Source of the DNA: Bacteroidales bacterium
GTDB taxonomy: Bacteria; Bacteroidota; Bacteroidia; Bacteroidales; UBA932
NCBI GenBank assembly: GCA_017560825.1
Contig: JAFZED010000025.1
Location: 1-37,412, forward strand
DNA: 37,412 bases
Direction: 5' to 3'
Shown here: piece by piece, positions 13,408-20,223 of the stretch
How positions within the stretch are numbered: position 1 is the stretch's first letter
How the letters are laid out: the number at the start of each line of letters is the position of its first letter
Made by a program: the position numbers and the translations under genes
Notes under the pieces: model-generated
Told to the model about the DNA's origin: nothing
Databases searched by the model: none
Seen by the model: the letters and a program-made list of their open reading frames with translations, nothing else

Positions 13408-13465
13408 TAAAGGCGGCAATCAGGTTCCGCGTATGAACCACTGAGACATTTTTTAAAGAAAATAT

Positions 13466-13520
13466 GACACAGTGGTGGCAAAAATCACATCAAAATGATG
13501 TTTCTAGCTACTACTGTGTC
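13466..13520 (+). repeat. GACACAGTGGT hairpin element
   Basis: GACACAGTGGTGGC (13466-13479) pairs along all 14 positions with GCTACTACTGTGTC (13507-13520) if transcribed on +, using two G-U pairs. The loop contains a nested ACATCA-aaa-TGATGT stem. A further GACACAGTGGTCGACC lies at 13539-13554, and related CCACTGTGACG and TGACACAG sequence occurs at 20614-20649. Both clusters sit next to the GCGACGCAGG units, suggesting a composite repeat. Confidence 0.6.
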
Positions 13521-13609
13521 GATTATTGGTATATAAATGACACAGTGGTCGACCCATAGCCTCTGCTTTCTAAGCCATATATCGCTCAAACACAGACTTC
13601 CATACCTAG

Positions 13610-13955
13610 CCAAACATATAGCCACCTATATCGCAACAAGTTAATATTCTGGAGATTGTATAACCCAAAGGGAGGCAGCAAGGGTGAAACCAATGGCTTC
13701 GATGAACTTTAAAACTTATGAAAATGCCGCCTCCCGAAATCAGTCTGCCTCTTATGGGATGCCGGCACAAAAGATTGGCGCAGAACAACCCATGCTGCTA
13801 TAGGCTCCGCAAAAAGCCAGGCTGATAAATAGGTTGCTCCGCGCCAAAGACACGGAACCACCTACCGCCCTATCAGCCATTCAGTAAATTTTGCGGATTT
13901 ATAGCAGCGACGATAGGGTTGGATATGTATTTAATTTCTATTGAATCTACATTCA
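13610..13955 (-). ncRNA. Candidate structured noncoding RNA with possible pseudoknot
   Basis: No protein frame is convincing here, but the minus strand folds extensively. Domain 1: GCTGCTATA (13900-13908) pairs with TATAGCAGC (13794-13802), stacked on CCGCAAAA (13889-13896)/TTTTGCGG (13807-13814), and encloses GGCTGATA (13871-13878)/TATCAGCC (13820-13827). Within that loop, GGCGCGGAGCAACC (13832-13845) can pair with all 14 bases of GGTTGTTCTGCGCC (13777-13790), outside the stem, forming a pseudoknot. Domain 2: GGGAGGCGGCA (13725-13735) pairs with TGCTGCCTCCC (13670-13680) and encloses GAAGCC-att-GGTTTC (13686-13700). Four positions pair as G-U only on the minus strand and would be A-C mismatches on plus, which sets the orientation. 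A -7 box lies just upstream. I recognise none of RNase P, tmRNA, SRP, 6S or a known riboswitch. Ends are approximate. Confidence 0.55.
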
Positions 13956-13958
13956 CTG

Positions 13959-13966
13959 CAAATATA
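13959..13966 (-). promoter_or_regulatory. -7 box for the ncRNA candidate
   Basis: TATATTTG on the minus strand lies about 50 bases upstream of the first stem of the RNA candidate. The -33 position is not consensus. It lies in the space shared with the divergent TPR-HTH gene. Confidence 0.45.
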
Positions 13967-14019: not shown

Positions 14020-15660
14020 ATGAAAAGATTATTCTACTCAATACTATTGATCTGCCTTGTGGCAAGTTGCAGCATAAGAGATGTCCGAAACCAACTCAAG
14101 GATATCGAGTCCTACATTGCCGACCGCCCGGACAGCGCCCTTGCTGTCATCGAATCCATTGACACAACAGCCCTTAAAACCAACAGTCTCAAAGCTCACC
14201 ACGCGCTCCTTCACGCAATGGCACTGGATAAGAACTACATTGATGTCAAGGATGACTCTCTTGCCCTTACTGCTGTACATTATTACCAAAAGCATGGCCA
14301 GAAGAAATATCTGGCGAGGGCACGCTATTATCTAGCATTGTCGTATTACTATAACAGACAGTACGACAAATCAATAATCGAACTCTCTAAAGCGGAACTT
14401 GTCGCGACAAAATACGATAGCTTATATTGGGGATTTGTCAAGGTTCTACAGGCGGATATACATAGCATAGATTATAATGGAATTGATGAACTTGAAGCTC
14501 TTGAGTATGCATTGAATATATATACTTCCATCAATCAGGGGTATTATATTAACAACACGAAATACAGGCTGGCAGCATCATATCTGAATAACAGGCAATA
14601 TGATAAAGCGCAAACGTTATTAGATGAACTGATTAACTCCAATAATTTGGATCAGCGTATTCTAAATAAGGCGATTAAAGAGTATGCCTTTCTTATGTCT
14701 ACACGTCCTGATGCAAACCACCTCTTGGCTTCATGTAATTATGAAAAAGTTGCAATAGGAGAAAGCTGTAAATATATGTCACTGCAAGATTATTGGGCAT
14801 GGGCTTATTCTTTATCCAAGATTGGAGAGGCAAAGAAGTCACAAGGACTTGTTGAGGAGCTGCAGCAGATAGATTCTTCAGGTACGGCATTTTACTTTAT
14901 GTATCTGATTGCAAAACACGAAAGAAGATATGGGGAAGCTTTAGAGTGCCTGGAGAGGTTTACAGAGCAGAATAACAATGAAGTCGTGCAGATTCTGAAG
15001 CAGTCAGTCTCCACCATACAGCGTGACTACTATCAGTCTCAATATGAAATTTCCAATTACAAAGCAAAAAACAGGTTGTTAATTACCATATTCATTCTTG
15101 TTGGGGCAATTATAACCATACTGTTCACAGTCCTGCTTGTCATCCGCTATAAAAAAATGAAAGAATCTGAGAAAGAGGAATACATCAGATATGCAGAAGA
15201 AGTAAATCGCCAATTGAGAGAACTTCAGAAAGACTCTTACACTTCATTGCAGAAGAAATATGTCCTGATGTATAAATCAAAATACGAAACCTTGAGAGCT
15301 TTATATGAACATTACATGATTTCTAATGGAAGAACTGACGCAGATAAAATCATGTATCGCGAGGTTACTCGTCTCATTGACGAACTTCGTAGTGACATCA
15401 AGGACAGTAAGACGCTTGAAAGGATCTTGGATAATGACCTCAATGGAATCCTCACAATTCTCCGTAACGAAATTCCTAATTTGACAAAGAAGGATCACAT
15501 CCTGATTGGTTATCTCTCCATCGGATTCGATGTAGTGATGATTTCCCACTTTATGGACTGTTCACCTAATTCAATCTACATCCGAAAGAGTCGTCTAAAG
15601 AAGGCGATCGAAGATTCTGGTGCAGAGCATAAAGATGTCTTTCTAGAAATAATCGGATAA
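14020..15660 (+). CDS. Membrane-anchored TPR protein with C-terminal helix-turn-helix
   Basis: The 546-aa protein starts with a lipoprotein-like signal (LVASC, C17). Residues 25-340 are helical repeats of TPR type (ARYYLALSYYYNRQYDKSII, 101-120; YRLAASYLNNRQYDKAQTLL, 182-201). One transmembrane helix follows (353-375), then a basic coiled coil (KEEYIRYAEEVNRQLRELQK). The last 59 residues (488-546, LTKKDHILIGYLSIGFD.. with NSIYIRKSRLKKAI) form a LuxR-like helix-turn-helix found in many Bacteroidales regulators of this architecture. The layout suggests that an envelope signal is sensed by the TPR domain and DNA is bound by the inner end. Its likely targets are the small secreted proteins downstream. 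Codon use is AT-rich like the next genes. Confidence 0.75.
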   Translation: MKRLFYSILLICLVASCSIRDVRNQLKDIESYIADRPDSALAVIESIDTTALKTNSLKAHHALLHAMALDKNYIDVKDDSLALTAVHYYQKHGQKKYLARARYYLALSYYYNRQYDKSIIELSKAELVATKYDSLYWGFVKVLQADIHSIDYNGIDELEALEYALNIYTSINQGYYINNTKYRLAASYLNNRQYDKAQTLLDELINSNNLDQRILNKAIKEYAFLMSTRPDANHLLASCNYEKVAIGESCKYMSLQDYWAWAYSLSKIGEAKKSQGLVEELQQIDSSGTAFYFMYLIAKHERRYGEALECLERFTEQNNNEVVQILKQSVSTIQRDYYQSQYEISNYKAKNRLLITIFILVGAIITILFTVLLVIRYKKMKESEKEEYIRYAEEVNRQLRELQKDSYTSLQKKYVLMYKSKYETLRALYEHYMISNGRTDADKIMYREVTRLIDELRSDIKDSKTLERILDNDLNGILTILRNEIPNLTKKDHILIGYLSIGFDVVMISHFMDCSPNSIYIRKSRLKKAIEDSGAEHKDVFLEIIG

Positions 15661-15837: not shown

Positions 15838-15845
15838 TAACTTTG
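15838..15845 (+). promoter_or_regulatory. -7 box of the DUF3244-like operon
   Basis: TAACTTTG fits TAnnTTTG and lies 28 bases before the ATG at 15873. The -33 region is not consensus, which is compatible with activator-dependent expression. Confidence 0.55.
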
Positions 15846-15872
15846 TGGCCGAACTTTAAAATCAAAACACTT

Positions 15873-16271
15873 ATGAAAACAAAAATCATTTTACTTATTA
15901 TGGCTGTATTTCTGCCATTATCTTTCATAACATTAAAAGCTGATGATGACGTATTACAAACTAAAATCCCTTTAAATCGAGTCTTCGGAGAGAACTACGA
16001 AAAGGGTAACCGTGGTATAATCGCACTTCCAATCGATTGCTACTATGCTGCTTTTCTCTCGATCATACAGACTAACGTATCCGATAATCTCGGAGAAATC
16101 ACCATCGAAGTCCTGAACACGACAACAGGAGAGACCTTCTACGAAACTTTCAACTCCACACTTACTCCACAGCACGTACTCCCAATTTCAGGTTCGGCAG
16201 GTTTTTACACGATTACATACACAATATCTGGTGGAGATGAATACATTGGAACATATATGCTTACAGATTAA
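15873..16271 (+). CDS. Small secreted DUF3244-like protein
   Basis: The 132-aa protein has a signal peptide (MKTKIILLIMAVFLPLSF, cleavage near TLKADD). The mature part is beta-rich: a proline turn (IALPIDCYYAAFLSI), a NLGEITIEVLNTTTGE strand pair and a final SGSAGFYTITYTISGGDEY followed by a short strand. This matches the overall pattern of DUF3244, a family of small beta-sandwich proteins that is abundant in Bacteroidales and often follows TPR-HTH regulators. The frame is open 10 codons upstream, but ATG at 15873 begins the signal peptide. The function of the family is unknown. It heads a run with the lipoprotein and lipase genes. Confidence 0.6.
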   Translation: MKTKIILLIMAVFLPLSFITLKADDDVLQTKIPLNRVFGENYEKGNRGIIALPIDCYYAAFLSIIQTNVSDNLGEITIEVLNTTTGETFYETFNSTLTPQHVLPISGSAGFYTITYTISGGDEYIGTYMLTD

Positions 16272-19572: not shown

Positions 19573-19641
19573 TAGGTTTCAGATGCAACCTTCGTTAAAG
19601 ATTTACATCTATATTTAGGATTAATTTTAAAGCTTAGTATT

Positions 19642-20223
19642 ATGAAAAAGATGTTGCTTGTGGTGCTGTTTGCTTTGGCAACGGTGTGCGCATCCGCTCA
19701 GTATAAGGGCGATGTCGCTGTGGATTCCCTGGGTGGTATTATGGTAAAGAAGGGTGGCACTCTTGTGCTTGACGGAGTAAAGGTTCGTGGTCATAATGCA
19801 GAAACTATGATACCAGAGTATTACGATCGCTGGAGAAAAGTTAATTTAGGATACAATATTGGTTTAGGATTAACTACAACAGGCTGCACTCTTTTCATTA
19901 CATCAGCCGCAGCATATATGTATGCCAGAAATAACGCTCCTGCCCCACCTTCAACTTGGGCGGAACTCGTCGAGTTCTATGAGCATATTAAGAGTATTGA
20001 CTCTTACCGAGACTTTATGCCTTGGGAGCGAGCATTGATAGAGAGTGCAAGGCTAAAATATTTATCATTCCCTTTCCTTGTAGCCGGCATCCCTACACTA
20101 TGCGTCTACAACTCTCGTCTGAAACAACTTGCAACAGATTACAATGAAGGACACCGAAACCAGGATGTGTCTCTCAGTTTCGGTGGGCAGAATAATGGAA
20201 TCGGCTTCGCTTTGAACTTCTGA
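19642..20223 (+). CDS. Small exported membrane protein, paralog A
   Basis: The 193-aa protein has a signal peptide (1-20, VCASAQ), a short beta-rich N-terminal part (GDVAVDSLGGIMVKKGG), two hydrophobic segments (about 71-95 and 140-160) and a C terminus FGGQNNGIGFALNF. That last pattern is common in uncharacterised Bacteroidota envelope proteins. Its paralog at 21031 has nearly the same first 47 and last 45 residues but a quite different middle. It lies 69 bp after the lipase gene with a near-promoter box (TATATTTA) shared by both paralogs. Function unknown. Confidence 0.7.
   Translation: MKKMLLVVLFALATVCASAQYKGDVAVDSLGGIMVKKGGTLVLDGVKVRGHNAETMIPEYYDRWRKVNLGYNIGLGLTTTGCTLFITSAAAYMYARNNAPAPPSTWAELVEFYEHIKSIDSYRDFMPWERALIESARLKYLSFPFLVAGIPTLCVYNSRLKQLATDYNEGHRNQDVSLSFGGQNNGIGFALNF

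Follow-up and report, generated by a model that had tools for sequence, protein, structure and literature searches.

The window, by which we mean the whole 37,412-nt stretch to which all coordinates refer, contains at 13610–13966 a region that the first-pass annotation described as a minus-strand structured RNA divergent from a membrane-bound TPR-HTH regulator. The TAnnTTTG box noted there at the upstream end is TATATTTG (13959–13966, minus strand), which we take to be a Bacteroidetes −7 promoter box; transcription would then start near 13952 on the minus strand. The divergent regulator gene (14020–15660, plus strand) encodes a protein with a lipoprotein-like start, TPRs, a TM segment and, judged by eye, an HTH-like C-terminus. 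Its Pfam TPR matches are weak and below the cut-offs, it has a strong hydrophobic peak at residue 357, and it weakly matches the NCBIfam family BT3442_fam (36.1 bits, cut-off 940). Beyond it lies an exported-protein operon. The first gene of this operon (15873–16271, plus strand), with a −7-like box TAACTTTG ahead of its start (15838–15845, plus strand), encodes a small protein with a signal-peptide-like start that is 39 and 40% identical to two counterparts. Searches of Pfam and NCBIfam with this protein returned no match; it might be labeled DUF3244-like, although Pfam gave no such match. The exported proteins that follow are variable, being esterase-like in the window and including a C10 peptidase with a Spi-type propeptide at another locus (L055). 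No gene lies downstream of the RNA on the RNA's own strand in the window. A palindromic repeat block at 13430–13550, with many diverged copies genome-wide, adjoins the RNA and is separate from it.

Folding of the minus strand of 13610–13966 gave −122.1 kcal/mol (z = −4.43), which none of 100 shuffled sequences matched; the plus strand gave z = −2.74, likewise with 0/100 shuffles as good. The minimum free energy (MFE) structure has nested stems of at least the lengths originally proposed, with 9 + 9 + 9 bp and a hairpin in domain 1 and 11 + 6 bp in domain 2. The proposed minus-strand orientation is borne out by a covariance model (R1, described below), whose score was 140.7 bits for the minus strand against 19.2 for the plus strand, with the window copy in its training set. 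The originally drawn extent proved too long. While the region does hold a structured RNA on the minus strand, 13610–13669 and the long outer closing stem (13610/13930), which is present in the window MFE, fall outside the conserved RNA, and we infer that the latter spans about 13952 to about 13665 on the minus strand, both ends being approximate. The sole open reading frame of at least 60 aa is a 60-codon TTG frame at 13606–13788 (minus strand), in keeping with the earlier view that no credible protein is encoded, and no frame beyond it would make the region a coding gene.

We also agree with the first-pass annotation that the RNA belongs to no recognized class, as covariance models of Rfam gave no match at the locus at the gathering threshold. 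With Rfam 15 only a tRNA matched in the whole window at that threshold, and the three matches obtained in the RNA region at E up to 10 were all sub-threshold. Four other members (L136, L137, L078 and L055) searched at E up to 0.1 gave one sub-threshold match, and 6S-Flavo was not found in the window's own genome. We conclude that this is a real structured RNA of gut Bacteroidales with no Rfam match.

Homologs, synteny and the conserved core

When 398 genomes of the family were searched with blastn, three matches were convincing, and all three belong to the same genus; a remnant turned up in G039. Although 256 of the 398 genomes matched at E ≤ 1, nearly all of these were short matches with E of 0.003–1 that we dropped as chance, and only those in G445, G459 and G424 C76 were carried forward. 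Loci in G408, G424 C139, G400 and G415 were rejected as homologs upon inspection of their sequences, and the 23-bp match in G039 is by our reading what a deletion left of hairpin T2 (see below) and not a second RNA. Model R1, built from a hand alignment of the three matches and the window copy, detected members in 26/400 genomes of the genus at E ≤ 0.01 (own genome included; weakest E = 0.0097), and in a search of the order it matched 1/393 genomes, namely the own genome. Model R2, built from 23 copies, matched 5/309 genomes of the family, two of them from another genus, and 2/344 genomes of the order, of which the own genome is one; we did not accept the other (G864, E = 0.02), a weak match. 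These genome counts are lower bounds because the search scores few candidates per genome. Within the own assembly (77% complete), blast found no second copy of the RNA part and the covariance model found a diverged one at G000:C65:25394–25531. A motif scan of genome contigs returned 16 stretches, all titled Bacteroidales MAGs; 12 of the 16 titles name a source, every one of them ruminant colon, cecum or rectum. No copy was accepted among the viral contigs, phages and plasmids searched, where we took the single plasmid match (E = 0.4) as chance. The open-licence literature yielded no description of this RNA, within a scope too narrow to establish its absence from print.

Two loci of one assembly (L060 and L077, on contigs C5 and C13 of G032) have identical RNA and the same flanking genes, which is either a true duplication or an assembly artifact. 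At L046 (G424 C76), sequence a few hundred bases from the RNA appears to resemble group II intron domain V.

The TAnnTTTG box recurs within 70 nt upstream in 24 of the 28 members with enough flank, counting the identical pair L060/L077 twice, compared with 2.3% of random stretches; at L070 it sits closer in, at −21. A TPR homolog is found near the RNA in 21/30 loci (the identical pair again counted twice) and is the immediate divergent neighbor in 19. Among the nine loci with no TPR gene in view, L052 and L064 start at a contig edge, and L071–L076 and L080 were viewed with flanks of 1.5 kb. When stretches of 13 kb were taken, L073 and L074 proved to hold a TPR homolog a few kb off, L076 a weak one, and L071 and L072 none. 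A syntenic subset of 4 to 7 loci has galactokinase-, endonuclease/phosphatase-, YchF- and SurA-like genes in common on the opposite flank of the RNA. The suggestion that this is a guide RNA left by a lost element finds no support in these surroundings, as the recurring neighbors are the TPR gene, its operon and housekeeping-type genes, no recurrent element gene was recognized in the window and among the selected neighbors whose families were searched, and phages, plasmids and viral contigs gave no accepted match. An Exo_endo_phos-type protein does recur at a syntenic site, and a PDDEXK helicase follows one of the divergent members (group II, see below). The other readings offered at first, a large non-coding RNA divergent from the TPR-HTH gene and a riboregulator of the surface operon, are well supported by covariation, synteny and start-codon complementarity.

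A covariation analysis of 22 distinct copies revealed strong compensatory changes in the helices. In a structure comprised of P1a, P1b, P3 and two pseudoknots, 93.4% of cells are paired, 26/47 pairs change on both sides and the covariation score is 0.473; slid versions of it score at most 0.082 and no shuffle reaches 0.473. A version with the A:B hairpin described below has 93.5% of cells paired and scores 0.578 (slid versions ≤ 0.122). Counts for P1a, P1b, P3 and A:B lean toward the nested model because the alignment was fitted to it, whereas the pseudoknots D:D' and B:C are absent from that model.

At the 5' end of the core is strand D, CCTATCGTC (13909–13917), which pairs with D', GGCGGTAGG (13861–13869), so that this pseudoknot links the 5' end to the apical loop (all core coordinates are on the minus strand). 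D:D' is mostly invariant among the 22 copies, with 99.5% of cells paired and both-side changes at 1/9 pairs; D differs strongly in divergent members and yet still pairs (CTTTTACC versus GGTAAAAG in L071 and L072). The 5' arm of P1a (13900–13908) forms 9 bp with 13794–13802, with 99.4% of cells paired and changes on both sides in 7/7 modeled pairs. P1b (13889–13896) forms 8 bp with 13807–13814, 7/8 of which change on both sides, and P3 (13870–13878) forms 9 bp with 13820–13828 (92.9% of cells paired, both-side changes at 4/9 pairs). Between P1a and P1b an AA(A)/GCC internal loop is conserved. Read row by row, its 3' side is GCC in 20, GC in 5, AC or ACC in 4 and GT in 1 of 30 readable members, the loop of L064 being unreadable; a simple pattern count of 8/31 excluded plain GCC. 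That the loop is kept while its flanking helices are rewired is as expected of a binding pocket.

These results bear upon the possibility that the region is what remains of a coding gene or mobile element and folds only by chance. Its patchy presence in the genus and the deletions at some loci would fit such an origin. However, compensatory changes occur in every helix, there is no longer open frame, the promoter box is conserved and no phage or plasmid copy was found. The covariation already refutes this reading, which we regard as extremely improbable.

Two alternative pairings at the end of the core

The first-pass annotation proposed a 14-bp pseudoknot between 13832–13845 and 13777–13790. 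This pairing is real and conserved (14/14 pairs by our reading), but rather than a standalone element it appears to be one half of a terminator/antiterminator switch. Strand B (13832–13845) can pair either with A (13849–13864), giving hairpin P4, or with C (13777–13790). Both pairings are preserved among the copies, with 94.0% of A:B cells and 89.9% of B:C cells paired (both-side changes at 7/14 pairs of the latter), and since they share B they are mutually exclusive. Their duplex energies are alike, at −22.2 for A:B and −25.9 for B:C in the window, with similar values in most copies; L069 is the exception with −6.4 for B:C.

Directly after C lies a T-rich tract, AATCTTTTG (13768–13776, minus strand), which is interrupted in the window. 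At least 5 T in the 9 nt after C were counted in 27/31 distinct members, compared with 7.7% of random and 18% of intergenic 9-mers, and a T-run of at least 4 within the first 12 nt in 25/31 (controls: 4.1% random, 11.2% intergenic). The T fraction is 0.74–0.81 at positions 2–5 after C and 0.13–0.16 at positions 12–14. The position of this tract suggests that B:C is the stem of a terminator, T1, and that A:B is the antiterminator. A consensus scan for short-loop intrinsic terminators found none, because that scan allows loops of at most 8 nt, compared with 41 nt between B and C; a terminator built on B:C would either be pseudoknotted or require P1–P3 to open.

Since D' overlaps the foot of A, D:D' and A:B compete. 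Judged by its pairings and U-tract, the core thus reads as an attenuator or riboswitch-like platform. In the scheme that we propose, a minus-strand RNA would start from the promoter at 13959–13966, and the first ~145 nt of its core would form a compact domain of P1a, P1b, P3 and D:D'. At the end of this domain B would pair either with A as antiterminator or with C, followed by the U-rich tract, as terminator T1. Since some bases at the foot of A:B also belong to D:D', B:C and early termination should be favored as long as the D:D' domain is stable, and release of D:D', presumably upon a signal, would favor A:B and read-through.

A variable seed and the start of the neighboring operon

In the main group of members, to which the window copy belongs (group I), read-through would add a second hairpin, T2 (13670–13735, minus strand), with arms at 13725–13735 and 13670–13680 and an inner hairpin at 13686–13700. 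Its loop contains a segment, TTTTCATAAGTTTTAAAGTTC (13704–13724, minus strand), that is unpaired in the MFE and that we refer to as the seed. In the window 24/27 nt of the loop are unpaired, and in 18 of 21 copies over half of the loop is unpaired; the T2 helix was chosen by script in these copies and is misplaced in a few. A T-run of at least 4 at the 3' end of T2 occurs at 7/21 loci, the window having 3 T. Thus, T2 may be a terminator, clearly so in a minority of loci only, and the scarcity of T-runs makes the 3' end of the read-through RNA uncertain.

Against the first operon gene, the seed shows 21 complementary bases in two blocks across 15851–15879 (plus strand), a site made up of 5' UTR and the start codon (ATG 15873). 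Because whole-locus duplex scans mostly returned chance pairing between G+C-rich stretches, we scored start codons instead. The site at the first gene scored 34.5, whereas the maximum among the 1321 other ATGs of the window was 26.5. The latter is a possible second target (19619–19648, plus strand) at ATG 19642, where a second exported-protein gene (19642–20223) encodes a 193-aa protein with a signal-peptide-like start.

We tested 21 loops and could assess 14 loci, as L051, L052, L053, L056, L061, L064 and L065 either run into a contig end or miss the TPR gene. With the site score taken as the maximum over the ATGs of a 300-nt zone, the best site near the first gene outscored all other ATGs of the locus in 11/14 assessable loci, so that an accessible seed complementary to a translation start is present at these 11. 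Shuffled seeds were as good in 0/1000 cases at 10 of the 11 loci and in 1/1000 at the eleventh. The seed sequence varies by locus and tracks its target; at L060 the first gene comes from another family and the seed still matches. In a cross-test among 17 starts the own start ranked first for 7/11 loops. L058, L062, L063 and L078 are near-interchangeable relatives, and for the L068 seed the starts of L060 (40.0) and L057 (31.0) outscore its own start (25.0). Pairing is weak at L079 (1/517 other ATGs as good) and fails at L067. L066 has no pairing in its first-gene zone and a 17-nt perfect match elsewhere, at the ATG of a 76-codon lipoprotein-like frame. A 27/27 seed match at L073/L122 (G539), on the other strand at +2270, was taken as a probable inverted copy of the hairpin and not as a target.

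These data suggest that the read-through hairpin would present a ~21-nt seed to the 5' UTR and start codon of the neighboring operon's first gene, where pairing would keep ribosomes from entering. The promoter region shared with the divergent gene is probably where the membrane TPR-HTH protein acts. We put about an even chance on this reading as a whole, that of a conditional antisense RNA that blocks a start codon and is placed behind a switch-like platform.

The same complementarity could instead reflect a DNA site of the TPR-HTH protein, present twice in opposite orientation, at the T2 loop and at the operon start, with the core acting as an attenuator that has no antisense action. The regulator gene indeed stands between both copies, and mismatches in the seed alignments (4 G-U, 10 A-C and 14 transversions) show no preference for G-U, so that this comparison did not support RNA pairing. 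In addition, the motif persists at an RNA-less TPR locus (G039 C15), where only a T2 arm and the target motif remain, followed by a short broken frame. Several features are nevertheless difficult to reconcile with an operator. The gap between the two blocks varies and lies on the mRNA side in 11/12 alignments, which would be expected of a bulge but not of a fixed operator. The start codon is included in one of the blocks, the other copy occupies an unpaired hairpin loop, and no same-strand gene follows the RNA in the window. We consider such a DNA site unlikely.

Three TPR loci with damaged or missing RNA, whose gene frames were read by eye, also have a broken or missing first gene. These are G039 C15, G021 C53, where an arm is kept and the first gene is missing, and G021 C36, where the first gene is broken and the best ATG for the retained seed lies elsewhere in the locus. 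Two TPR homologs stand without the RNA, a distant one (32%) with an intact first gene at G005 C17 and one of 26% at G000:C65:31270. The G021 C36 locus (L134), upstream of its TPR gene, is a natural core-less variant that keeps the promoter box, part of the 5' motif and the seed hairpin and lacks P1–P4.

This variant is what one might expect if the RNA were a constitutive structured sRNA, in which the core is no more than a scaffold that stabilizes the RNA or binds a protein, A:B and B:C are intermediates of folding, and the seed RNA is made unconditionally and still blocks the neighboring start codon. The seed and synteny evidence also fits such an RNA. It leaves unexplained, however, why the T-rich tract after C is stronger than that after T2 and why A:B and B:C have similar energies, and it must also account for the members described next, which keep the platform ahead of coding genes. 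We regard it as possible but doubtful.

Probable leaders of defense operons and known counterparts

Four members (L071, L072, L136/L138 and L137/L139), which we refer to as group II, have a common D strand, TCTTTTACC. In 3/4 of them an anti-phage defense operon follows on the same strand, its first start codon 53–57 nt after C; this sample is small (n = 4), and the defense genes were noticed first and counted afterwards. L071/L120 (G389) leads a BREX-like operon (BrxP then BrxC; E = 5e-254 and 7e-137), L138 (G352) a helicase-nuclease and methylase operon (UvrD-PDDEXK then a type III-like methylase) and L139 (G300) a type I R-M operon (HsdM then HsdS). No defense operon is in view at L072. A TAnnTTTG box lies at −74 to −78 in 3/4 group II members, and the run of T after C reaches only 3 T in 3/4. 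The best reading of this arrangement is that the platform serves here as a 5' leader, in which case the read-through product would be the defense mRNA itself.

Similar start-codon targeting has been described in the same phylum. GibS and FopS of B. thetaiotaomicron are sRNAs that anneal around start codons, and FopS represses translation of a surface transporter (PMC7366714, PMC11697453). GibS pairs via its 5' part and is described as largely unstructured, and FopS forms a 14-member family with no strong indication of sub-diversification. Judged by these descriptions, the RNA studied here differs in that its seed is located in a 3' hairpin loop, varies by locus with its adjacent target and follows a large double-pseudoknot platform. 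Another Bacteroides sRNA connected with a TPR protein is MasB, which represses a TPR gene with a predicted site ~40 nt after the start codon (PMC10994844); in our case the TPR gene is the divergent neighbor and the target is another operon. The BT_3442–BT_3433 cluster likewise brings together a TPR protein, a small Ig-like protein and surface proteins (PMC2954219), a likeness matched by the weak BT3442_fam hit of the window's regulator; the passages on the cluster describe no RNA. Our RNA models gave no accepted member outside the window's family among the genomes searched.

A different precedent is provided by EutX and Rli55, sRNAs whose functional 3' part is made or not depending on a riboswitch. 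Those RNAs sequester a protein through ANTAR sites, whereas the 3' part here would be an antisense seed, behind a platform with no Rfam match. Transcription-attenuating riboswitches consist of a pseudoknotted domain, an antiterminator, a terminator and a U-tract. The platform has the same parts and in group II likewise precedes coding genes; it differs in that terminator strand B lies inside the apical loop, making B:C a pseudoknot.

A further step would be to regard the core, with its AA(A)/GCC pocket and D:D', as a new riboswitch-like class of sensor in Bacteroidales, in which a single read-through decision yields either a locus-specific sRNA that silences an exported-protein operon or the leader of a defense operon, thereby linking surface variation and phage defense to a common signal. 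We offer this only tentatively, as somewhat unlikely.

Bacteroidales are a dominant group in the gut, yet few of their regulatory RNAs are understood. If the proposed scheme is true, it would add a modular RNA platform by which a read-through decision silences a neighboring surface operon and which is also used ahead of defense operons. It would thus give a handle on how the level of defense systems is set, and the core, as a candidate new aptamer, would allow a direct search for its ligand.
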